DNA of 64,000 nt from Calothrix sp. PCC 7103 (GTDB lineage Bacteria; Cyanobacteriota; Cyanobacteriia; Cyanobacteriales; Nostocaceae): contig NZ_KB217478.1 of the NCBI RefSeq assembly GCF_000331305.1, positions 4,676,296-4,740,295 of the forward strand. Direction: 5' to 3'. A program made the position numbers and the translations under genes. Of the stretch, positions 1 through 9,873 are shown piece by piece (position 1 is the stretch's first letter; the number at the start of each line of letters is the position of its first letter). The notes beneath the pieces were generated by a model that saw only the letters and a program-made list of their open reading frames with translations, had not been told where the DNA came from and made no database searches.

Positions 1-9
1 ATTTTCAAG

Positions 10-45
10 CTTTTTAGATGCTTCACTACGGTGACTCATGACATG
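10..45. repeat. Dispersed repeat of the 'ttc-actacg-gactcatgac' type
   Basis: The sequence from about 14 (gatgcttcactacg, then a variable stretch, then catgac) recurs at 41094-41121 and, more diverged, at 22408-22433 (gattcttcgctgcactcaga, then atgac). All three copies are intergenic. They look like one family of short interspersed repeats. No coding potential is seen. Confidence 0.55.
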
Positions 46-72
46 ATATTTCAAAATTGGATGTTCCCATAT

Positions 73-1095
73 TTAGGCTTCAATATCTAAGCTTACATCT
101 TCTTCATACAGCTTTATAGAAGTGTCAATTATTAGATTATTCGGCATTCCTTCTTTAATATCATAAAATTTAGCGTTAATATTTTCTGCTTTTTCTAAGC
201 AACATAGCTGAATACTTTCTTGGTGTTTACGCGCGAGTAATTCAATTTTTTTTAGTACAAAGTAGCTATGAGTAGCCATATAAATTTGTGTCCCAGCTTG
301 ACTAAGTGCAAAAAGTGTCTCACATAAGGTGATGATGGTACGAGGATGTAAGCTTGTCTCTGGCTCATCAATAAATAAAATTGTATCTTTTTTAATTGCT
401 CCATTACGGATTAAGGTAGTCAATAAACTAATTTTTTTGATACCTTCTGCCACTTGCGACATTTCATACTTCTCACTTCCGTGTTGAAATATGAATCGTT
501 TTTCCTCTAGAGCGAGTTCTCCTTGAAATAAGTTTTGTAAAGAGTCAAGAGCATCTTCAAGAGGTTTATCCAATTTTTTAGTAGAAGTTGGTACTATTAA
601 AGCGTCAGTTAAATCTTGGTAAGTTTGGTCAAAACCAAAAACCCTTAGCTGTTTGTAAAATGTTGCTATAGTCTCAACAGCGTTTAGAAATTGTTTTGAA
701 GGTATGTATAAAGCATTTAAGTCTAATTTATTCGCAGATTGTTCACATTCAGTAATAGTTTGTTTGGTGTCTTTACCAAACGAACAACTATATTTATCTC
801 CTTGTAGTAGTGCTTTTATATTTAGAAGGTCGCCACTTTTACGAACTACTTCACCAAGATTAAGGTTATTAGGTTGAAATACCCTAACCATTTTTTCTGA
901 TAAAGTGTCTTTCCAGCTTTTATCATCGAGATTTATTGTATATTCTTCAACGCTCTTGGCTAGACAATATAAGAGCTTTAAAAGATAAGTTTTTCCTGTA
1001 TCATTGTCACCAATGATAATATTAATTTTTTGATGATTTTGCCATTCTAAGCGCGAAAAAATCCCAAAATCTTCTGCAAGCAAATACTCAAACAT
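73..1095 (-). CDS. AAA/ABC-type ATPase (OLD/RecF-like), candidate defence-system ATPase
   Basis: Predicted 340-residue cytoplasmic ATPase. The P-loop is GDNDTGKT at residues 29-36, an ABC-signature-like stretch lies near 211-222, the Walker B is ILFIDEPE (239-246), and a switch histidine follows in MATHS (about H276). This domain order fits AAA_15/AAA_21 proteins used as motors or sensors in prokaryotic conflict systems. It is the last gene of a minus-strand group after a nuclease-like and a phosphoribosyltransferase-like gene, with a 78-base gap upstream. That gap begins with a copy of the 3' end of the gene at 2873-4390, part of a 48-bp direct repeat. No nuclease or TOPRIM domain is fused to it. 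The ATPase call is firm; the defence role is inferred from neighbours. Confidence 0.85.
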   Translation of the reverse strand: MFEYLLAEDFGIFSRLEWQNHQKINIIIGDNDTGKTYLLKLLYCLAKSVEEYTINLDDKSWKDTLSEKMVRVFQPNNLNLGEVVRKSGDLLNIKALLQGDKYSCSFGKDTKQTITECEQSANKLDLNALYIPSKQFLNAVETIATFYKQLRVFGFDQTYQDLTDALIVPTSTKKLDKPLEDALDSLQNLFQGELALEEKRFIFQHGSEKYEMSQVAEGIKKISLLTTLIRNGAIKKDTILFIDEPETSLHPRTIITLCETLFALSQAGTQIYMATHSYFVLKKIELLARKHQESIQLCCLEKAENINAKFYDIKEGMPNNLIIDTSIKLYEEDVSLDIEA

Positions 1096-1119
1096 GATTT
1101 TAACTACCTTCAGGCGCCT
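1072..1119. repeat. 48-bp direct repeat, copy A (over ATPase start)
   Basis: Matches 2845-2892 at 47 of 48 positions, the one difference being base 1087 versus 2860. Read on the minus strand it carries the last codons and stop of the gene that ends at 2873, then the first eight codons of the ATPase gene. Here the ATPase part is functional and the upstream part is a remnant. Confidence 0.95.
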
Positions 1120-1173
1120 ATCTGATTAATAACCGTGCTAATTTTGGTGTCATGTCTAACTTTGTTCTACTTA

Positions 1174-1917
1174 TTAGGAAGAAATGTATTGAGAAGTTGT
1201 ATCCTTACCTAAAGCGTTATTACTATGGAGAAAATTAGCACGTCTTTGCTTTACTATCTCTGGAATATATTGATTTTTGTCGTCCTGGTTTGCAAAACCT
1301 AGTCTTGTGTAAACATTTCCACCTATCCCTGGAATTACTTCACCTTCTGGAGTCCTTTCTGTATCCTTAGCAAAGTAGAAAAACTTAAATTTTTGATAAA
1401 TATCTTCTTCAAATTCATTTTTCAGCTTTTCTTCAGCGTTGTAGTAAACAACAGGCGCCGCTATAAATATTTTTTCAGGCTCAATTTTTTGAATAAGATT
1501 AACTAAATTCGTTCGGACTACACACGCACCCGAAATAATCGATTTTACAACTATTAAATATTTAACTTTACTTCCAGTCGGTTCTTGATATTTCTTTAAA
1601 ATCGGAGCGACTTTTAAATCTTCTATTTCAAAAGGAGAAAAACGTTTATTCCAAAAACAAGCAAAAGCAAGTTTAGACAACCTATTCTCTAAACTAGTTA
1701 GTATACCCTTAGCCAAAAAATCAGCATCTTCCACTGTAGATGCTAAATATACATCAGACTCTTTATTGTCAATTTGATCCAAAATGCAATCACCCAGGCT
1801 ACTACCAAGCTGGGTCATAGTTTTTTTGTATAGATGAGGCTCAATACTTTTATCAGCTAAAATTTCTAGCCAATTATGGACATCATCATTACATAAATCT
1901 GAGTAAGCTCTAGTCAT
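1174..1917 (-). CDS. Phosphoribosyltransferase-like protein of a putative conflict system
   Basis: 247 residues with features of the type I (uracil) phosphoribosyltransferase fold. There is an early 'VYLASTVEDADFLAKG' stretch (56-71), a hydrophobic strand running into 'KSIISGACVV' (about 125-134) where PRTases bind PRPP, a strand at 150-157, and 'PGIGGNVYTRLG' (196-207), which recalls the uracil-binding loop. The acidic pair normal in a PRPP loop is not obvious (KSIISG), so catalysis is uncertain and a ligand-sensing role is possible. Its start overlaps the stop of the nuclease-like gene by 4 bases (ATGA, 1914-1917), implying coupled translation. In ABC-three-component terms it would occupy the middle-component position. 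Confidence 0.6.
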   Translation of the reverse strand: MTRAYSDLCNDDVHNWLEILADKSIEPHLYKKTMTQLGSSLGDCILDQIDNKESDVYLASTVEDADFLAKGILTSLENRLSKLAFACFWNKRFSPFEIEDLKVAPILKKYQEPTGSKVKYLIVVKSIISGACVVRTNLVNLIQKIEPEKIFIAAPVVYYNAEEKLKNEFEEDIYQKFKFFYFAKDTERTPEGEVIPGIGGNVYTRLGFANQDDKNQYIPEIVKQRRANFLHSNNALGKDTTSQYISS

Positions 1918-2810
1918 ATTAAAAAGACCTCTAACTCTTCAAAACAAGTAGGTCGATTCTTTTTTATTAACTCCTGAAATTTTTGGAAACGTTCGGTTTC
2001 AATACTGTAAGAAAGTATACCTTCCTCAAGTCCGTCCTGAAACTTCCAACATAAAAAACCTCTTGAAATTTTGTAAGTAAAGGAATCAACATTATTTAAG
2101 ATTTTTTTTACTTCAGGGTCTAAATCTAAGCCAGTTTGGAAACTCCGAATGTATGAAGGAATAAACTCTTGAGCTTTCCTTAGTATATCTATCACGGATG
2201 CAATAGATTTATCACTTGCTCTCCAAGCTCCTAATAGTACAGATGCTACACATTCAAGTTTGTCTGGGTCTGGATTGTCAAAAGCGCACAGGTACTCAAT
2301 TGAACGTCTAAAATCAGGCTCCTTGTCGATTATTCTAGGTAAACTATTATCATAGCAAAAATACAATACCTTACTATAATTTTTTATATCATTAGGTATA
2401 CTTTTATTTAATTTTTCTCTAAGTTCCTGTGAAGAAACTACAAGATATATTTCAGACTCCTTAGATATGGCTTGATTTAAGGTGTATTGCTTATGAAAAT
2501 CGTCACGTATTGTTTTTTCTCCATCTCCCCAGATAACATTTGAGCTATTTTTGAGTTGATAGTGTCTTAGTACTGCTTCAGTTTTACAGTCAATTACTAA
2601 GTCGTCAACAAAGGCAAAGCACTGGCTTAATATATCTATTTCTTGATTACTTTCGATTACACATTTTGACAACAAGGCTAATTGATAAACAGCAAAGATA
2701 TCTTCATATTTAATTCCTTTGTTACTACTAGTGCCACCTGTATTTTTATTTTTGAGATATTCTAAGGCTTTGGCACCAAATAAGCTTTCTATTTGTTTTT
2801 CTGTGTACAT
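1914..2810 (-). CDS. DUF4297/Cap4-like PD-(D/E)XK nuclease candidate
   Basis: An ORF continues to a TTG at 2864, but those first 18 codons overlap the 48-bp repeat scar. The ATG at 2808-2810 (MYTEKQIESLFG) is therefore preferred, giving 298 residues. The N-terminal part resembles Cap4/DUF4297 endonucleases: 'GIKYED', about 35 residues later 'FVDDLVID', then 'HYQLKN', matching the E - D - (Q/E)xK spacing of PD-(D/E)XK enzymes. The C-terminal half is helical and unrecognised, and could be the part that contacts partners or senses a signal. Downstream is the PRTase-like gene (4-base overlap), then the ATPase. DNA cleavage is inferred from motifs only. The region is more AT-rich than the flanking genes. 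Confidence 0.55.
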   Translation of the reverse strand: MYTEKQIESLFGAKALEYLKNKNTGGTSSNKGIKYEDIFAVYQLALLSKCVIESNQEIDILSQCFAFVDDLVIDCKTEAVLRHYQLKNSSNVIWGDGEKTIRDDFHKQYTLNQAISKESEIYLVVSSQELREKLNKSIPNDIKNYSKVLYFCYDNSLPRIIDKEPDFRRSIEYLCAFDNPDPDKLECVASVLLGAWRASDKSIASVIDILRKAQEFIPSYIRSFQTGLDLDPEVKKILNNVDSFTYKISRGFLCWKFQDGLEEGILSYSIETERFQKFQELIKKNRPTCFEELEVFLI

Positions 2811-2844
2811 TTTGTCATTTGAGTCACTTAAAAATGTAATAATA

Positions 2845-2892
2845 TTCTGCAAGCAAATATTCAAACATGATTTTAACTACCTTCAGGCGCCT
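2845..2892. repeat. 48-bp direct repeat, copy B (end of regulator gene)
   Basis: Partner of 1072-1119. On the minus strand it contains the true 3' end of the 2873-4390 gene followed by an ATG and codons for MFEYLLAE, the ATPase N-terminus. That reading frame then diverges and stops within about six codons. This copy is therefore a dead duplicate of the ATPase start. Confidence 0.95.
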
Positions 2893-4390
2893 CTCTTGCT
2901 AAATCTAACAAATGCGATTTCAGTTGATACTTTTCTGTTTCAAAGTCAATTAGCATCTGTTTTTGCAAACCTTGGCACATTACGAGTGCGTCATCACTAC
3001 TGGCGCCAGTTCCCGAACAAATTTCAGCAAGCGTCATTCCCGCAGGAGCATTACCCAAAAGTCCCAAAATTCTTGCAGCTTCGGGGGAAATGGTAACTCC
3101 TAAACGCTTTTTCCAAAAAGCATCAGCGATAATTTTTAATGGACGCGAATCAAGTTCAATGCGGAAGCGGTTATTTTGGTCATCAGATTCGATAATTGGA
3201 GGACGACGTTTTGCATTACGCCAAACACGAGAGACTTCGCGCAAACCAGAACCAGCTAGTTCGGCAAAGCCAATTAGTTTTAACGCACGTGCGATTAATG
3301 GATTACGAGCAGTACTAGTTCTACCATTCATTAAATCTTTTTGCGATACCAATGAGGCGCCAGCGTTAACCATAATTGTACGATGTGGTACAAGTTCGAT
3401 TTGGGCGACAGTACGCTGGTCTTTATAATCTTGGTGAATAATTAAGTTGATTAAAGCCTCGCGCACTGCAACATAATCAGCAGAACCTGTAGGTGCCTGA
3501 AGATTTTCTGTTGATAACCCTTCGATGGGGTTATAGTGGGTAATAAAATCAATTGTTTTTCGCAGTGCTTGAAGTACGTTTTCTGTTAATTCCTCGCGCT
3601 CATTCCAACGTCCTTCCGGATTAAAACTTGCTCGTAAGTCTAGAATATCGCGTTTTATTTGACGGCGAATATTTATACTCGTGCCAAATAGTAGTATTAA
3701 TTGATGCATCTCATCAGGAGTAAATTCCCCTCTTCCATCAAGTAAAATTTGCCGAATTACCTCTGCTGGGTTGTTCCAATCAAGTTTGATCCCCTTAGCA
3801 TCAAAAGCATCTGAATTCACCTTTGCTTTTAATACAGTACTGTACCATTGTAGAGTTTGCTTATCTAATTCTGCCCAGTCAATATTTTGATAAAAATTTA
3901 ATGTACTTGTAATCATAAGCTTTCGCTTTTCCCCCCAAGCTTCTAAAAAAGTTCTGCCATCATGGAAAGTAATTGTTTCAATTGGCACAAGCTCACCATC
4001 GAGTACCCGTAATAAATCCTGTGGCAATATTGATTCATTAGGTGGGTTAAAAGCTGCTAAGGAATTGTATATAAGACTATCGTTAGCAACTTTATCTATT
4101 AAGTAAAGACTTTGTGCGGCTCTATCTCTCTCCAAACCCCATATTAACATTGGATAGACCAAAAGGGCGCCTGTTGTTGTGCCAACATAAAGTTTTTTAT
4201 CATCAGATAAAAAGTCCGAGACAGCAATTTCTTCTGGTATTGGTTCGTTTGATTCTCCCATTAATACTAAGCGATTAATATGGTTAACCTTGCGTACAGG
4301 TCTTTGGGTATCAACTAAAAACAAAGGTAACTCATATAAAGCTGAAAGTCCTTGCAGTGCTTTGCGAACGGGTACGGTAGATGTTGCCAT
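2873..4390 (-). CDS. ATP-binding (HATPase_c_4) RecG-like regulator with C-terminal winged helix
   Basis: About 505 residues from the ATG at 4388-4390; a TTG four codons earlier is also open. The centre has the 'VREALINLIIHQDY' motif (near residues 309-322) and a downstream 'GSGLREV' glycine motif, diagnostic of the GHKL-type ATP-binding domain in COG2865-like proteins. These usually follow an AlbA_2/Schlafen DNA- or RNA-binding domain, but the N-terminal region here is not a clear AlbA_2. The C-terminus (about 435-500) looks like a winged helix. Such proteins are common in mobile and defence regions and are thought to act as regulators; the role here is unknown. Its last codons are duplicated ahead of the ATPase at 1095. 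Confidence 0.75.
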   Translation of the reverse strand: MATSTVPVRKALQGLSALYELPLFLVDTQRPVRKVNHINRLVLMGESNEPIPEEIAVSDFLSDDKKLYVGTTTGALLVYPMLIWGLERDRAAQSLYLIDKVANDSLIYNSLAAFNPPNESILPQDLLRVLDGELVPIETITFHDGRTFLEAWGEKRKLMITSTLNFYQNIDWAELDKQTLQWYSTVLKAKVNSDAFDAKGIKLDWNNPAEVIRQILLDGRGEFTPDEMHQLILLFGTSINIRRQIKRDILDLRASFNPEGRWNEREELTENVLQALRKTIDFITHYNPIEGLSTENLQAPTGSADYVAVREALINLIIHQDYKDQRTVAQIELVPHRTIMVNAGASLVSQKDLMNGRTSTARNPLIARALKLIGFAELAGSGLREVSRVWRNAKRRPPIIESDDQNNRFRIELDSRPLKIIADAFWKKRLGVTISPEAARILGLLGNAPAGMTLAEICSGTGASSDDALVMCQGLQKQMLIDFETEKYQLKSHLLDLAREAPEGS

Positions 4391-4517
4391 ATGCGTAGGC
4401 AATTGGCTGAGGCTTAACCATTAAATAATCTCTACGCACTAATAGATAAGAATAGTATTATATTCTCAACTAAAATGGTATAATTATAGATTATAAGAAA
4501 AACGATAATGAAAAATT

Positions 4518-4799
4518 ATGGCACTTCGACAACCGCAATTTAGTAAAGAAGAATTTGCAAGACTGGGTGATGAGATTTACGAACGCGATATTTATCCGCA
4601 GCTTCAACCCGGTAGTGCAGGTAAAATAGTTGCTGTAGATATTTCTACAGGCGCCTGGGAAATAGATGATGATGAAATTTCAGCTTGTAATCGTCTTGAA
4701 AAACGTTACCCAAATGCACAAATTTGGATTGTACGAGTTGGTTCTCGGTATGTTCGCAGATTTGGCGCCAGTCGCAGTCAAAAAACAAAAACAACATGA
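4518..4799 (+). CDS. Small conserved protein, antitoxin-like first gene of a pair
   Basis: 93 residues with acidic and amphipathic segments (FSKEEFARLGDEIYERDI, then WEIDDDEISACNRLEKRYP) and a basic tail (YVRRFGASRSQK). No catalytic motif is seen. The stop overlaps the next start by 4 bases (ATGA, 4796-4799), the arrangement typical of gene pairs in which the second codes for a clan AA retropepsin-like protein. That partner is broken here. It is likely a conserved cyanobacterial two-gene unit; function is unknown. Confidence 0.6.
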   Translation: MALRQPQFSKEEFARLGDEIYERDIYPQLQPGSAGKIVAVDISTGAWEIDDDEISACNRLEKRYPNAQIWIVRVGSRYVRRFGASRSQKTKTT

Positions 4800-4918
4800 T
4801 TATTGGAAAAGTTAATGCGGACTATGAGCCAATTATTCGCGTTGAGATTCATGGTTTTAATGGAAGGATTGACGAGCGAGATGCAGTTAAAGTCAAGAAA
4901 AAACTATTGTGCCAATGA
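4796..4918 (+). pseudogene. Truncated clan AA aspartic-protease-like gene
   Basis: The 40-codon product begins MIIGKVNADYEPIIRVEI, which I recognise as the N-terminus of small retropepsin-like (clan AA) proteins. It then jumps to 'GFNGRIDERDAVKVKKK' and stops. The catalytic DTG(F/A) motif expected about 30 residues in is missing; only 'GFNG' remains of it. An internal deletion is the simplest reading. It is coupled to the upstream 93-residue gene by ATGA. Confidence 0.5.
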
Positions 4919-5004
4919 TACAATCTCAAGCTTATAAAGAATGGTTAAGTTCTGAGAACAATATTTATGATGAACTCTTCACCGATGAATTTTCAACGCG
5001 GTAA
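4915..5004 (+). CDS. Short ORF, probable gene remnant
   Basis: A 29-codon frame begins at an ATG that overlaps the previous stop (4915-4918) and contains KEWLSSENNIYDELF, with normal codon use. It may be the start of a third gene in the broken unit or an antitoxin fragment. No ribosome binding site or fold can be supported. Confidence 0.25.
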   Translation: MIQSQAYKEWLSSENNIYDELFTDEFSTR

Positions 5005-5074
5005 TGTTGTGTGGCACTAAACACATAGTTGGCAAAAACAGATAGAATGGGTGTAGAGTTTTTAGGCTGAAACT

Positions 5075-5413
5075 ATGCAAGATACATCACCGCTCTACTT
5101 GATTGACCAGCAGTTAGAACTCTTGACTCTTAAAGAATTAATAGAGATCAGAGTTAAAGTGGATGAGTTAATTGAGAAAAAGAACATTTCAAGTAATGGC
5201 AATCATGAGATAATCTCTCATCTGAGCAAAGAAATAAGCCCAGTATTTGCTGCTATTTATGTTCAACTCCTTGAACGAAAAGATGTCAAAAATGATTCCA
5301 TAGAAAATGTAAATAAGCTTGTTTCTGAATGGATGCAAGATGAATCGGATTATGATGAGGAAACCTATCCTCTACTTGAGGAAGGATTAAAAAATAATCG
5401 TTTTTCTATATAA
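5075..5413 (+). CDS. Hypothetical protein, likely antitoxin partner of the PIN protein
   Basis: 112 residues, acidic and helical, with 'LLTLKELIEIRVKVDELIEKK' near the N-terminus suggesting a short coiled coil and an acidic tail (QDESDYDEETYPLLEEGLKNNR). No classical DNA-binding motif (AbrB, RHH, Phd) is visible. It ends 7 bases before the PIN-domain gene, a spacing typical of toxin-antitoxin operons with the antitoxin first. Function is inferred only from this position. Confidence 0.6.
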   Translation: MQDTSPLYLIDQQLELLTLKELIEIRVKVDELIEKKNISSNGNHEIISHLSKEISPVFAAIYVQLLERKDVKNDSIENVNKLVSEWMQDESDYDEETYPLLEEGLKNNRFSI

Positions 5414-5420
5414 AAAATTC

Positions 5421-5891
5421 ATGACCAGGGTTGTTTTGCTGGATTCAGGACCATTGGGACAAGTTGTCCACCCGAAAAGAGGCTCAAAAATTACTAAGTG
5501 GTTAAAGATGTTACAGGAGCAGTCTTATAAACTGCGAGTTCCTGAAATTGCCGATTACGAAGTACGGCGTGAACTTTTGAGACTAAAAAGAAACAAAAGT
5601 ATAAATAGATTAAATCAACTAGCTCGCTATAACTTGATACCACTTGATACAGATACAATGAGGACAGCAGCAGAACTTTGGGCAAATATAAGAACCGAGG
5701 GACAGCCTACAGCTAGTGACGATAGTTTAGATGGAGATGTTATTCTTGCAGCGCAAGCAATTCTCCAGTTAAGTAATTTTGATGAGGTTGTAGTAGTAAC
5801 CACTAATTTGAATCACATATCAAGGTTTGAAAGCGCAGGTATACAAGTTCAAGACTGGCAACAAATTCTTGATAATTTGGATGATTTATAA
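5421..5891 (+). CDS. PIN-domain protein (VapC-like ribonuclease toxin)
   Basis: 156 residues with the PIN layout: the first acidic residue in VVLLDSGPL (D8), a second acid in DYEVRR (E47), and a third cluster in SLDGDVILAAQA (D104/D106) before a C-terminal 'VVVTTNLNHISRF'. These are the metal-binding acids of the PIN nuclease fold, so ribonuclease activity is plausible. It follows the 112-residue gene by 7 bases. The slightly long 'PLGQVVHPKRGSK' N-terminus matches a cyanobacterial PIN subfamily rather than canonical VapC. It is probably a toxin of a type II-like pair; targets are unknown. Confidence 0.75.
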   Translation: MTRVVLLDSGPLGQVVHPKRGSKITKWLKMLQEQSYKLRVPEIADYEVRRELLRLKRNKSINRLNQLARYNLIPLDTDTMRTAAELWANIRTEGQPTASDDSLDGDVILAAQAILQLSNFDEVVVVTTNLNHISRFESAGIQVQDWQQILDNLDDL

Positions 5892-5902
5892 ATAATTTAA
5901 TT

Positions 5903-6160
5903 TTATTTGAGTCCCTTAAGAAAAGTTAGGAGTTTTCCCTCACTAAAACGTTGAAATTCTCCTTTCATTAAATGCGATACTTCTGGTTGTGGAATACCAA
6001 GAAATTGACTAATTTCGCGCTGCTTTAGGCCGCGTTGTTTTAATATACTAAGTACTTGAATCCCGATTTTCCCACGGGTAAAAAGTTCATCCGCATCTTC
6101 TAGACTAAGGTCAGCGAATACATTACCACTACTTTCTTCAAAAACAGGTTCTTGTGTCAT
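5903..6160 (-). CDS. XRE/HTH antitoxin-like protein (HigA-type) coupled to addA
   Basis: 85 residues: an acidic N-terminus, then a helix-turn-helix 'GLKQREISQFLGIPQPEVSHLMKGEF' of the COG5606/HigA type that usually represses its own toxin operon. No HigB/RelE toxin is adjacent. Its ATG instead overlaps the stop of addA by 4 bases (6157-6160), making it the third gene of an addB-addA-xre operon. It may regulate that operon or be an orphan antitoxin; the sequence cannot decide. Confidence 0.75.
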   Translation of the reverse strand: MTQEPVFEESSGNVFADLSLEDADELFTRGKIGIQVLSILKQRGLKQREISQFLGIPQPEVSHLMKGEFQRFSEGKLLTFLKGLK

Positions 6161-9100
6161 GCTTGTTTTTCTCTTTCTTGTGCGTCTTTATTAACCACTA
6201 AAAAGCCATCTATGGGATAACTTTTATATTCTGGATGTTCTGGTTCAGCATAAATTAAATGATTATTTTCAATGCTTCCGTTCCACACTGCTACTATAAT
6301 GCGATTGCGGGATAGTCTCTGAAGACACCCCAGAGGGTTAAGCTTGAGGGAAACATCAAACAAAATTTCCAGGTGTTCTAAAAAAATTACTTCATTATCA
6401 TTATCATTTACTATTTTCTTTAATAACTCTTCAGCTTTTAACGCTCGTTGCCGTTGCGTCAACTCTAACAGGCGCCGACTCAATTCCAAGTTAACATTGA
6501 TGTATCCACTATTATGAGTCTCAGCTATTTGCCGAAAGTTGATTGACGAAGTGTTTTGGTATGGAACAATTATTAATTGATAGTACTGTTCTGCTGCTTG
6601 GGGGAAGTAGCTAGTAAGTTGACTTATACTATCTCTCTGTTGCAGTTGCGTTTCCATATCAACTAAGCTTAATTCTTTATGACCTGTTTCTCTATAATTA
6701 TTTTCACAAATTTCTGCATAAGCACAGTAACTACAATTCTTCTGAGATGGCGCCGCTGAATAATGCCCGTCTAAAATGTTCTGCACCAAAATTTCCGCTT
6801 CTTGTGCTGTACTTTCTAATTCCGCAGTGGTACATGTGTGTAAATAATTGTGACGTAAATACGCAATATGGGCAGTTTTACTATCTGTGGCTTTTGCATA
6901 AGCCCAAAGTTGAAATCGGTGATGATTCGGGTTTATCTCTTGGTCGGTTTTAAAGTCTAATACCCAATCTTCCCCTAATATGTCAACAATACCATTTAGA
7001 GTTAAACCACCAATATTTAATGTTACTGACTTTTCTCTTTGCCCTTGCTGAAATGCTGCAAAATCCGCTACCTCATCAAATCGCTGGGCTAACTGTAAAG
7101 CTGTTTCTACATCTTCTCTTGACAAAGTTGTATCATAATCTGCCAAAATATCAATATCACGAATACCACGTTCTAAGGCTAAGTGGGTTAAAATTCCAAT
7201 ATTTCCTGCTGTGGCAAATCCGCTACCTATCCCTGGATGTCCTTGTATAAATTTATATTGAAATCGTGCTGGACATATAGCATATTCAGTCAAAGCAGTA
7301 ACAGGCAATTCAAATAATCCTGAACCTGTAGGTTTGATAAGCAAGCTGTGAGGTTCTGCTGGTAAAGGTGGGTCAGGAAGAATTGGAGGTTTGGCTGATT
7401 CCTCATCAAACGGGATGCTATTTATAGTTATTCCCGCAGCGTTTAAACCTGGTTCTAACAGTTTTAATCTTCCTCGACTCTCACTGTTTGCTGTAAGAAT
7501 TAACTTGTCACGCACACGAGTTAAAGCGACATAAAGCACTCGCAAAGCTTCTTCATTTTCTTGCTGTTTGCGTAATTGCTCTAGCCATACATAAAGTACT
7601 GGTTTGGTTTGGCTTTCTTCGTCTCCTAATTTTAAAGCAACACCGTAGGTAGGGTCAAAGTACACTACTTCGCCTGTTCCCGGTTCTTTACGAGTCAAAT
7701 CTGGTACTACAACTACTGACCATTCCAAACCCTTGGCAGCGTGAATAGTCATTAACGATACTGCATTTGATGCTGATAACGCTGGACGGGGAATTTCAAC
7801 TGAATAAGCTAACCGTTTTAGGCGCCTAACCACGGCAAACACATCACTATTACCATGTTCTAACTCGCGTACTAAGTCAAAAAAACCACGCCAGTCAGCA
7901 TCTCGTCGTGGCGCCCCTGCTAAATTAGCTATAACCGCAGTGTAACCAGTTAAATTATCTGCAAGCTGTAAAAGTCGAGTTGGAGATTCTAAATTACGCA
8001 GATGCAAAAGTTTACTCAACACCTCTACTGGGCGCCGTAATTCCAGATAATCTGAATTTTTCAGGTTTTGCCACCAGTTAATTTTAGATTCGGATGTTTG
8101 TTTTTCTTGAGCTTGAATGAATATAAATAATACCTTATCGCTAACTGCAAAAAACGGACTACGTAATACAGCAACTAAAGCTAAATCATCGCTTGTATCG
8201 GCTAAAAATCGTAATAATGCCCAAGCATCTTTTGCTTCGCGCGTTTCGAGTAAATTTCCACCTCCAGCTAAAGCAACGGGAATACCTAGACTTTCTAATG
8301 CTTCACCGTAATCTTCTAAAGGCGCCCAAGTACGCGATAATATAGCAATATCTCCGGCAACAATTGGACGCAGTGTATTAGTTTTTTTATCATGCACTAA
8401 GGTTTGCTTATCTAACATTTCTTTGAGCAACCTAGCAATATGGGCAGCTTCTACACGCAAACGTTGAGGTTTATTTGTGTCAGCGCCTTCTACTGTATAT
8501 ACTCTTATTGCTGGATAATCATGAGGACACTCTGTACGATAAGCATCTAAGTCTTGGTGCAATTCACCTAACAATGGTGCAAAAATACTGTTGATATTAT
8601 CTACTAAAGGTTTATGAGTGCGAAAACTAGTACTTAATACTTCTTTGTTGCCACCGTTATTTTCAATTTTATTGCACCAATCGCCAAAAATCTGTACATC
8701 TGCGCGTCGAAATCCATAAATTGATTGTTTGGCATCACCAACTATTGTTAATAAAGCGTTTGATGTTATTTTCTGTAACATTTCTGACTGTACAGGGTTA
8801 ACATCTTGAAATTCATCGATTAAAAAAGCTTTCCAGCGTTGTGCATAATAAAATTGTACTTGAGTATCTTGCAGAGCTTGTAAGGCGCCAACTTCCAAGT
8901 CAGCGAAGTCAAGAACGCGCTCCCGATACTTGGCATTACGAATATATTTTTTAACTAAATCAAAAGCTTCTCGTAATTGTGGTAATATAGCTGCTAACTT
9001 TTGGTCAGCAGCACTAATTTCTAGAGTAATTAAACCAGCTTTAAGATAATTTTGTACTAAATCTCTTAATTGTTTGATACACTCTTTAACAATTTCTAAT

Positions 9101-9873
9101 GCTCCTTCTTTCCAATTCTTTTTACTGCCAAAATTTATTTTGAGTTTATCTATTACAGATAAAGCTTCTTTTGGACTTCCTCCCATTTCTAAAACATTTA
9201 TTGCTTGTAACGCTGGTTGACGGGTTTCCACTTCTAAACGGTCGCTCGCAGAACCTGAATATATTTGTAAGGTATCTCGTACTTCTTGCCAAGTGGGATG
9301 TTGCAACAATTCATCAAGTGCATTTTGTTGTAACTCTTGTGCTAATTGTTGCCAGTTACTAGTATCTTGGGTGAATGCTTTTTCTGCACTAATTGGGTCG
9401 CAAAGCAGTATTTGCAAGACTTGAGACATTAACGAATGCGATATTTGTTCGTAAAGTTTTACAGGCAAAGTATCTAATGCTTCATCTAACCATTCCGAAG
9501 CTCGCAAAGCTCCTTCATACTTATCAAGAACAGTAAAATCAGCAGGTACACCCGCAGCTTCAGGATGTTCGCGACAAATTCGCATTGCCAAAGCGTGAAT
9601 AGTGCTTATTTGCGCTGCTTCTAATTCTGCCAATAAATCTGGATGATGGGGAAGTTGCTTTGAGACAGTAGCACGAATGCGCGCACGTAACTCGGAAGCT
9701 GCTTTTTCTGTAAAGGTAACTGCGACTATTTCTAATGGGGAAAGTTCATGTGCTTGTAAATGGTGAACATACCGTTCCGCTAGCATATGAGTTTTGCCAG
9801 TTCCCGCTCCTGCTGTGACTGCGACACTACCCGACGCAGAAGCTGCTTTTTGCTGTTGTACAGTTAAACTCAT
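6157..9873 (-). CDS. addA: AddA-type helicase-nuclease subunit (UvrD-family, PD-(D/E)XK)
   Basis: 1238 residues. An SF1A (UvrD-like) helicase has Walker A AGAGTGKT (21-28), motif II LIDEFQDV (near 352), and motif VI 'VALTRVRDKLIL'. A C-terminal PD-(D/E)XK nuclease follows with 'WVLDFKTD' (near 973). 'CSYCAYAEIC' (about 1046-1055) together with an upstream Cys in 'YAICPARF' forms the iron-sulfur staple known in AddA/AddB nucleases. It would resect double-strand ends with AddB and load RecA. The start overlaps the addB stop by 4 bases (ATGA, 9870-9873). A tail of about 120 residues beyond the cysteine cluster is unassigned. The family call is strong; subunit naming rests on the pairing with the 875-residue neighbour. 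Confidence 0.85.
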   Translation of the reverse strand: MSLTVQQQKAASASGSVAVTAGAGTGKTHMLAERYVHHLQAHELSPLEIVAVTFTEKAASELRARIRATVSKQLPHHPDLLAELEAAQISTIHALAMRICREHPEAAGVPADFTVLDKYEGALRASEWLDEALDTLPVKLYEQISHSLMSQVLQILLCDPISAEKAFTQDTSNWQQLAQELQQNALDELLQHPTWQEVRDTLQIYSGSASDRLEVETRQPALQAINVLEMGGSPKEALSVIDKLKINFGSKKNWKEGALEIVKECIKQLRDLVQNYLKAGLITLEISAADQKLAAILPQLREAFDLVKKYIRNAKYRERVLDFADLEVGALQALQDTQVQFYYAQRWKAFLIDEFQDVNPVQSEMLQKITSNALLTIVGDAKQSIYGFRRADVQIFGDWCNKIENNGGNKEVLSTSFRTHKPLVDNINSIFAPLLGELHQDLDAYRTECPHDYPAIRVYTVEGADTNKPQRLRVEAAHIARLLKEMLDKQTLVHDKKTNTLRPIVAGDIAILSRTWAPLEDYGEALESLGIPVALAGGGNLLETREAKDAWALLRFLADTSDDLALVAVLRSPFFAVSDKVLFIFIQAQEKQTSESKINWWQNLKNSDYLELRRPVEVLSKLLHLRNLESPTRLLQLADNLTGYTAVIANLAGAPRRDADWRGFFDLVRELEHGNSDVFAVVRRLKRLAYSVEIPRPALSASNAVSLMTIHAAKGLEWSVVVVPDLTRKEPGTGEVVYFDPTYGVALKLGDEESQTKPVLYVWLEQLRKQQENEEALRVLYVALTRVRDKLILTANSESRGRLKLLEPGLNAAGITINSIPFDEESAKPPILPDPPLPAEPHSLLIKPTGSGLFELPVTALTEYAICPARFQYKFIQGHPGIGSGFATAGNIGILTHLALERGIRDIDILADYDTTLSREDVETALQLAQRFDEVADFAAFQQGQREKSVTLNIGGLTLNGIVDILGEDWVLDFKTDQEINPNHHRFQLWAYAKATDSKTAHIAYLRHNYLHTCTTAELESTAQEAEILVQNILDGHYSAAPSQKNCSYCAYAEICENNYRETGHKELSLVDMETQLQQRDSISQLTSYFPQAAEQYYQLIIVPYQNTSSINFRQIAETHNSGYINVNLELSRRLLELTQRQRALKAEELLKKIVNDNDNEVIFLEHLEILFDVSLKLNPLGCLQRLSRNRIIVAVWNGSIENNHLIYAEPEHPEYKSYPIDGFLVVNKDAQEREKQA

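Follow-up and report, generated by a model that had tools for sequence, protein, structure and literature searches.

A nuclease-like and uracil-PRTase-like gene pair probably inserted into a duplicated regulator-ATPase junction of a BREX-like locus in Calothrix sp. PCC 7103

The DNA analysed here is a stretch of 64,000 nucleotides from Calothrix sp. PCC 7103 (contig NZ_KB217478.1, positions 4,676,296 to 4,740,295), which we call the window. Near its start the minus strand carries four genes, ordered REG, NUC, PRT and ATPase, which code for a regulator-like protein, a putative nuclease, a protein with the predicted fold of uracil phosphoribosyltransferases (uracil PRTases, UPRTases) and an ATPase. 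We conclude that the NUC-PRT module very probably entered the REG/ATPase junction of a BREX-like defence locus and that at least 82 bp of this junction were duplicated. The event would date back to an ancestor shared by several Calothrix-like strains. We are somewhat less sure, though still confident, of the whole explanation, which also proposes a function for the pair. Compared genomes and loci carry G and L numbers, G000 being the genome of the window itself. The features on which the argument rests are the following (window coordinates, all on the minus strand):

73-1095, minus: ATPase gene, 340 aa, ABC/OLD-type AAA_21, host operon, downstream of the cassette
1038-1119, minus: duplicated junction copy A, with REG-tail stub, ribosome-binding region and live ATPase start
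1072-1119, minus: 48-bp core of copy A, 47/48 identical to copy B, two copies in the genome
1174-1917, minus: PRT, 247 aa, uracil-PRTase fold predicted from AlphaFold2 (AF2) model, Foldseek and alignment, phosphoribosyl pyrophosphate (PRPP)-site acids replaced
1914-2810, minus: NUC, 298 aa, nuclease-like by motif only (invariant residues E36 / D70 / Q85-x-K87)
2811-2892, minus: duplicated junction copy B, with REG end and dead ATPase start, up to the NUC ATG
2824-2868, minus: relic open reading frame (ORF) from the dead ATPase start, MFEYLLAEYYYIFK, then TGA; 14 codons, with 13 nt left to the NUC ATG
2845-2892, minus: 48-bp core of copy B, 47/48 identical to copy A
2873-4402, minus: REG, 509 aa, HATPase_c_4 and weak winged helix-turn-helix (wHTH), host operon, upstream of the cassette

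The first-pass annotation of this DNA had reported a 48-bp direct repeat at 1072-1119 and 2845-2892 and had read each copy as a junction between the end of REG and the start of the ATPase gene. Alignment confirmed the identity of 47/48, and the stop and start codons of the two copies agree with the proposed junctions: in copy B a complete REG (stop at 2873-2875) is followed by an ATPase start that is dead after 14 codons (TGA at 2824-2826), and in copy A a REG-tail stub precedes the live ATPase start at 1095. The expectation for a 47/48 match by chance in 8 kb is about 5e-19, and the core occurs, with up to 3 mismatches allowed, in exactly two copies on the same strand of the 11.6 Mb genome (reversed control, 0). 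These numbers rule out a chance repeat, and the copy number also rules out, for the window, a dispersed repeat family in its own genome.

The 48 bp turned out to be the best-kept core of the repeat and not its full length. A repeat-finding scan widened the pair to 1036-1123 and 2809-2896 (88 bases, 83% identity, offset 1773). When five junctions were aligned on the ATPase start and the extension was scored against 2000 shuffles, ATPase bases +24 to +58 were seen to persist in copy B, reaching the NUC ATG. Over this segment copy B of G002 matched the ATPase start of G018 at 24/34 positions (0/2000 shuffles as good), and copy B of G000 matched G018 and its own copy A at 21/34 positions each (11/2000 and 7/2000 shuffles as good, respectively). 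With the 24 bases 5' of the ATPase ATG, the duplication is therefore at least 82 bp long, and this value replaces 48 bp as the size of the whole target duplication.

In copy B the REG stop TAA is separated by 4 nt from the dead ATPase ATG, whose 14-codon frame closes with TGA, 13 nt from the NUC ATG. Because this decayed ATPase start lies there and reaches the NUC ATG, the ATPase gene appears to have once followed REG at copy B. The spare start would have decayed to the 14-codon relic, which may pass ribosomes on to NUC; the relic ORF has equal length and the same TGA in G002. Only NUC and PRT, plus short overlapping ORFs, lie between the repeats. The NUC stop and the PRT start share the sequence ATGA, thus the two genes are co-directional and overlapping, as in toxin-antitoxin modules. 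NUC likely starts at the ATG at 2810 rather than at the TTG at 2864 given in the ORF listing, because in nine other NUC loci with visible 5' end the frame is open for only 1-12 residues above this Met; G002, with the same 22-residue extension as the window, is the exception. As the junction was duplicated, copy B keeping the REG stop and copy A supplying the ATPase start, both host genes were spared.

Relatives in which REG and the ATPase gene adjoin across a single repeat copy would support an insertion, as the first-pass annotation had suggested. Among 60 related genomes, in which NUC was matched in 6, the ATPase (E <= 1e-30) in 6 and REG in 4, one such site was found: in G018 the ATPase gene (L020 2493-3515) directly adjoins the REG C-terminus across one junction copy, NUC and PRT are missing, and the neighbours are the same as in the window, with BrxH-like pieces on one side and an AddA-like gene on the other. 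When the 1773 bp between the repeats are deleted in silico, REG (509 aa) and ATPase (340 aa) both remain intact, and within 120 bp on either side of the ATPase start the deleted window matches G018 at 199/240 positions without a gap. These two results, together with the occurrence of NUC-PRT elsewhere, support the earlier proposal that a cassette of about 1.77 kb was inserted and the junction duplicated. In G002 the NUC, PRT and ATPase genes are whole, REG is represented by its C-terminal part only, and both junction copies are present in diverged form. In G003, REG residues 12-181 are fused to PRT residues 23-144 and followed by remnants of BrxH, PglZ and BrxA, a sequence arrangement that marks an eroded occupied locus. 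Two patterns had been named as speaking against an insertion, all relatives having the four genes with both repeats, and a repeat-less relative having REG-NUC-PRT-ATPase. The former does not hold among the relatives compared, and the latter was not seen in them; both copies are present in G002, the only further genome with four genes.

The same observations bear on the possibility that the four-gene operon is ancestral and that in G018 recombination between the repeats, kept for their stop/start function, removed the pair. Excision would produce the G018 arrangement, and this weakens the empty-site evidence, as a past excision would look the same; the better conservation of the G000 core than of its flank (p 2e-5) also agrees with this possibility. 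It is contradicted by the presence of NUC-PRT in many unrelated contexts, by the ATPase relatives of G058, G044, G043 and G172, around which neither NUC-PRT nor REG was matched in the DNA covered (G172, the only extra ATPase locus found in a family-wide search of 217 genomes, has no REG alongside), and by the dead ATPase start in copy B, which implies that the ATPase came first. We regard ancestry of the four-gene operon as very unlikely.

The insertion looks older than the split of G000 and G002, not fresh, to judge from the junction sequences. The two genomes have a common copy-B boundary and a common TGA closing the relic ORF, therefore they share one insertion. The 48-bp cores of copies A and B, which should be of the same age in both genomes, differ at 1 position in G000 and at 9 in G002 (Fisher p 0.015), and there are 5 differences between the two A copies, 5 between the two B copies and 12-14 between any of these and G018. 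Compared with its own flank, the core is much better preserved in G000 (1/48 vs 13/34 differences, p 2e-5) and less clearly so in G002 (9/48 vs 13/34, p 0.076). The core was probably homogenised later in G000 by gene conversion; alternatively, the core may be under stronger constraint. The ratio of nonsynonymous to synonymous divergence (dN/dS) between G000 and G002 is 0.13 for NUC, 0.16 for PRT and 0.35 for both the ATPase and the C-terminal part of REG; for five neighbour genes it is 0.09-0.27, at dS values of 0.02-0.54. By this measure the cassette is well kept and the surrounding host genes are more relaxed.

It is conceivable, if rather improbable, that the cassette arrived as a junction-NUC-PRT circle or linear piece, released from another BREX-like locus by recombination across its repeats and integrated at the junction by a single crossover; the repeat would then represent crossover homology instead of a target duplication that an integration enzyme had produced. 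Such an event yields the gene order seen here, long direct repeats included, and requires no recombinase gene; the lower dS of the cassette between G000 and G002 (0.22-0.25) than that of ATPase and REG (0.34-0.42), and the homogenised core of G000, would also fit. But a crossover presupposes that an insertion with this very duplication had already happened, thus it explains spread and not origin, and no donor locus was seen other than G000, G002 and the G003 remnant.

Direct repeats flanking an insert, and the existence of an empty site, are features shared with transposons that duplicate their target site. Such target-site duplications are usually a few bp long, whereas here the duplication is at least 82 bp. 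Neither transposase nor terminal inverted repeats were found: 0/22 inverted pairs of at least 16 nt link the two cassette ends. Without such a gene, an integrase, inverted termini or a tRNA, a transposon or integrase element was rejected. An Rfam scan of positions 1-6000 of the window gave no match, and promoter and terminator scans gave no excess over shuffles. The length of the duplication, far above the usual transposon value, could be accounted for if a tandem duplication of the REG-ATPase border came first and NUC-PRT later replaced the intervening DNA by illegitimate recombination. Such an order would also account for the lack of duplication at another NUC-PRT site (between YqeG and ProB, see below). 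We find it improbable, a shade more so than the crossover just described: it takes two events where one is enough, and a tandem duplication without the cassette was seen in no genome.

Outside the REG/ATPase junction, NUC and PRT recur in diverse contexts. Among 386 genomes of the phylum PRT was found in 9 and NUC in 9, both being present in 8 of the 10 that have either. In G016 the pair lies between a methyltransferase (MTase) gene and a YprA/DruE-like helicase gene, and on a Chroococcidiopsis plasmid, typed as conjugative, between an MTase gene, three small ORFs further, and a YprA/DruE-like helicase gene. In G074 the pair precedes the helicase gene at a contig start; in G025 the MTase/YprA-helicase context recurs with NUC broken and PRT not found; and in G019/G273 the locus follows the helicase gene, NUC being truncated. 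In G174 the pair lies between YqeG and ProB, which adjoin each other without it in G572 of the same genus; G571 has NUC-PRT-ProB, YqeG being outside the view. NUC-PRT also occurs on a Geminocystis plasmid and on the viral contig L045. Phage records searched with PRT gave no match.

A duplication is not common to all these sites. Repeat scans of ten NUC-PRT loci gave one convincing flanking pair, in G074, where 45-nt repeats of 82% identity (L050 27-71 and 1821-1865) flank NUC-PRT at the YprA-helicase start, G148 having a single copy there. This repeat is of a dispersed kind, with 136 copies in G148 and 4 in G074. G074 is thus a possible second case of junction entry, weakened by the dispersed nature of the repeat and by the duplication-free G174. 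We give a low probability to the more general idea that NUC-PRT is a nomadic cassette which enters the start junctions of defence genes, duplicates them so that each host gene retains its start, and can be shed again by recombination; the junction would then act as a switchable effector slot.

Concerning function, the PRT model (AF2, mean predicted local distance difference test (pLDDT) 72.1) had as top Foldseek match 1xtt, a uracil PRTase (E 1.2e-8, TM 0.57/0.66), and 27 matches at E <= 0.001 were UPRTases for the most part. On this structural prediction we assign PRT the uracil-PRTase fold. A profile search against PDB sequences returned a single, weak match, also a UPRTase (E 0.026). In this weak alignment the D of the PRPP loop faces K125 and the last D of GLGD faces G200 (GIGG), and both K125 and G200 are invariant across 13 PRT members. 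PRT thus shares the fold of uracil phosphoribosyltransferases and differs from them in K125 and in GIGG. NUC has E36, D70 and Q85-L-K87, a pattern spotted by eye, invariant in 10 members; it is reminiscent of PD-(D/E)XK nucleases, hence the designation putative nuclease. Pfam gave only single weak family hits for the 10 members. For the longer-start NUC ORF there were weak hits below cut-off to PADLOC Cas6 (0.012) and to an NCBIfam HAD-IG nucleotidase (0.0026).

We tentatively suggest, at slightly worse than even odds, that NUC is the effector and PRT the sensor or inhibitor of an accessory pair nested in a defence system. NUC would probably be a PD-(D/E)XK-type nuclease, and PRT a catalytically dead relative of uracil PRTases that either prevents NUC activity or detects phage attack through a nucleotide signal. 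Both frames are open at 12 loci (G000, G002, G016, Brasilonema, G052, G074, G347, G174, G571, in which NUC is visible from residue 49 only, G189, viral L045 and the Chroococcidiopsis plasmid), and intact NUC lacking PRT was seen in 0/12. Intact PRT without intact NUC occurs in four lineages: G019/G273, whose identical PRT was counted once, the second PRT of the window's own genome, G166 (a solo PRT near genes that look by eye like type I restriction-modification genes) and viral L043/L046. L044 and L047, with less than 0.95 kb visible upstream, were left out of this count. NUC fragments without PRT are present in G025, G404 and G174:C11. The 4:0 asymmetry in gene content is suggestive of, but does not prove, an antidote-like PRT.

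The opposite assignment, with PRT as the toxin, as in type III-A retrons, and NUC as a partner or processing factor, seems unlikely to us. The only PADLOC match of PRT was PRTase_III-A, a weak one (E 0.0017), and PRTase/WH genes are described as typical of III-A1 retrons in a part of PMC12548924. In four lineages PRT has survived intact although NUC is damaged or missing, and the reverse was never seen, which would be odd for a toxin; the PRPP-site acids of PRT are replaced, and the loci have no PADLOC reverse transcriptase (RT)-effector context, nor was there an Rfam hit at the window. The likeness to type III-A retrons is thus a defence-linked PRTase-like protein (weak match), the partner here being NUC; neither the four proteins nor the scanned neighbours included an RT, and no ncRNA was matched by Rfam in window 1-6000.

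It must be noted that several observations weigh against our explanation. The empty site is known from a single genome, G018, in which REG has an internal deletion (residues about 79-346 gone, 3' end whole) and BrxH is in pieces. In G000 the upstream arm beyond -24, tested over 30-80 bp, is not significant (1704-1893 of 2000 shuffles equal the copy-B score); in copy A of G002 it is weak (42 and 50 of 2000 shuffles at 45 bp). No transposase, integrase, tRNA or Rfam RNA was found in or beside the cassette, and there is no comparable duplication at the YqeG-ProB site of G174. At 0.22-0.42 the dS of the locus is higher than in three of the five neighbour genes compared (0.02-0.11), thus its descent was perhaps not strictly vertical. 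With regard to function, NUC has no detectable family: the window protein has no match in Pfam, PDB or PHROGs, its AF2 model is poor (pLDDT 47.6), and hhalign comparison with a two-sequence Cap4-type nuclease profile was negative (probability 0.17%) and gave no support to NUC as a Cap4/DUF4297 relative. The sign test for the antidote-like asymmetry rests on 4:0 only.

The host locus is, on the evidence of profile matches, BREX-like. Beside the ATPase gene PADLOC recognised BrxA (5.2e-86), PglZ (3.3e-246) and a BrxHI/HII profile (1310 bits), so that the type-3 BREX parts BrxA, PglZ and BrxHII are present. The BrxF profile matched not a separate gene but residues 1084-1230 of a 1238-aa AddA/UvrD-type helicase-nuclease encoded at 6157-9873 (minus strand). 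BrxC and the BrxX methyltransferase were not seen among the proteins scanned, which beyond position 9800 comprised 10 of the 40 listed ORFs. The ATPase matched PADLOC HEC-02A over residues 1-337 (355.7 bits, 6.8e-107) and Pfam AAA_21 (1.8e-18). REG matched HATPase_c_4 (5.5e-8) and, below cut-off, MarR_2 (0.0033); no Schlafen domain was detected in it.

Small nuclease-bearing auxiliary or backup effectors lie between core genes of BREX operons, according to passages of PMC12839542, which name PD-(D/E)XK proteins, OLD-ABC modules and proteins with Schlafen, minimal histidine kinase and wHTH domains as BREX backup effectors. REG (HATPase_c_4 and weak wHTH) and the ATPase (HEC-02A) resemble the effectors described there; unlike in the cases presented in those passages, here a NUC-PRT pair lies between two such genes and the junction is duplicated. 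A term search of the main text of PMC12839542 returned neither "PRTase" nor "phosphoribosyl", and "phosphoribosyl" is absent from the main text of PMC12458937, which deals with ARMADA/Druantia YprA-helicase systems. As far as these are set out in that text, NUC-PRT lies within such gene sets in G016 and on the Chroococcidiopsis plasmid; from its gene content we read the YprA-helicase set as ARMADA Type I. The pair is optional there, as 3 of the 28 helicase genomes in the 386-genome sample carry it (PRT scored), and a strong ARMADA link was discarded because the Fisher p of 0.021 falls to 0.10 once two near-identical genomes are merged. Titles and abstract openings retrieved by literature searches described no pair of a nuclease and a UPRTase-like protein, and scans of Pfam, NCBIfam, PADLOC and PHROGs gave no informative profile match to NUC-PRT.

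NUC-PRT is thus a recurrent, little-described two-gene accessory module, whose insertion here is old and accompanied by an unusually long junction duplication. The locus appears to be a defence operon caught during assembly: a two-gene effector would have been added, and copying of the junction would have kept both host genes unbroken. Attention is also drawn to the pairing of a nuclease-like protein with a degenerate uracil PRTase, which recurs on plasmids, on a viral contig and in loci of BREX-like and ARMADA-like type. Should PRT act as sensor or inhibitor, this would point to nucleotide sensing as a trigger.

Some further observations concern the same genes. The second, solo PRT of the window's own genome (L048 8552-9271; G000:C7:52566-53270) is 70% identical, has no NUC nearby, and lies in the vicinity of genes that by eye are of plasmid type. 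The viral contigs L043 (8001-8708), L046 and L045 (3905-5511) encode identical PRT, with NUC in L045 and different upstream DNA in the others; from a point 27 bp above PRT the sequence of L043 is that of L045, and above this point the two differ, which could also be an assembly join. A solo PRT on a phage could serve as an antidote. In G019 a transposase-like ORF (L028 5521-6441) splits the NUC remnant and is absent at this place from the near-identical G273. The reading frames of the REG relatives in G018 (L020 3508-4595) and G003 (L024 7177-7686) extend upstream of the start of the window REG, which, going by these frames, may be N-terminally shortened. In G172 (L056 5370-6644) the ATPase relative stands just after an ORF that by eye resembles an IscB/HNH RNA-guided-nuclease-type protein. 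The gene of the AddA/UvrD-type helicase-nuclease, the partner to which the BrxF-like C-terminus is fused, recurs in G018. Positions 5075-5891 of the window (plus strand) hold a toxin-antitoxin-like pair of small genes, the second with a weak PIN match below cut-off (E 0.0017).

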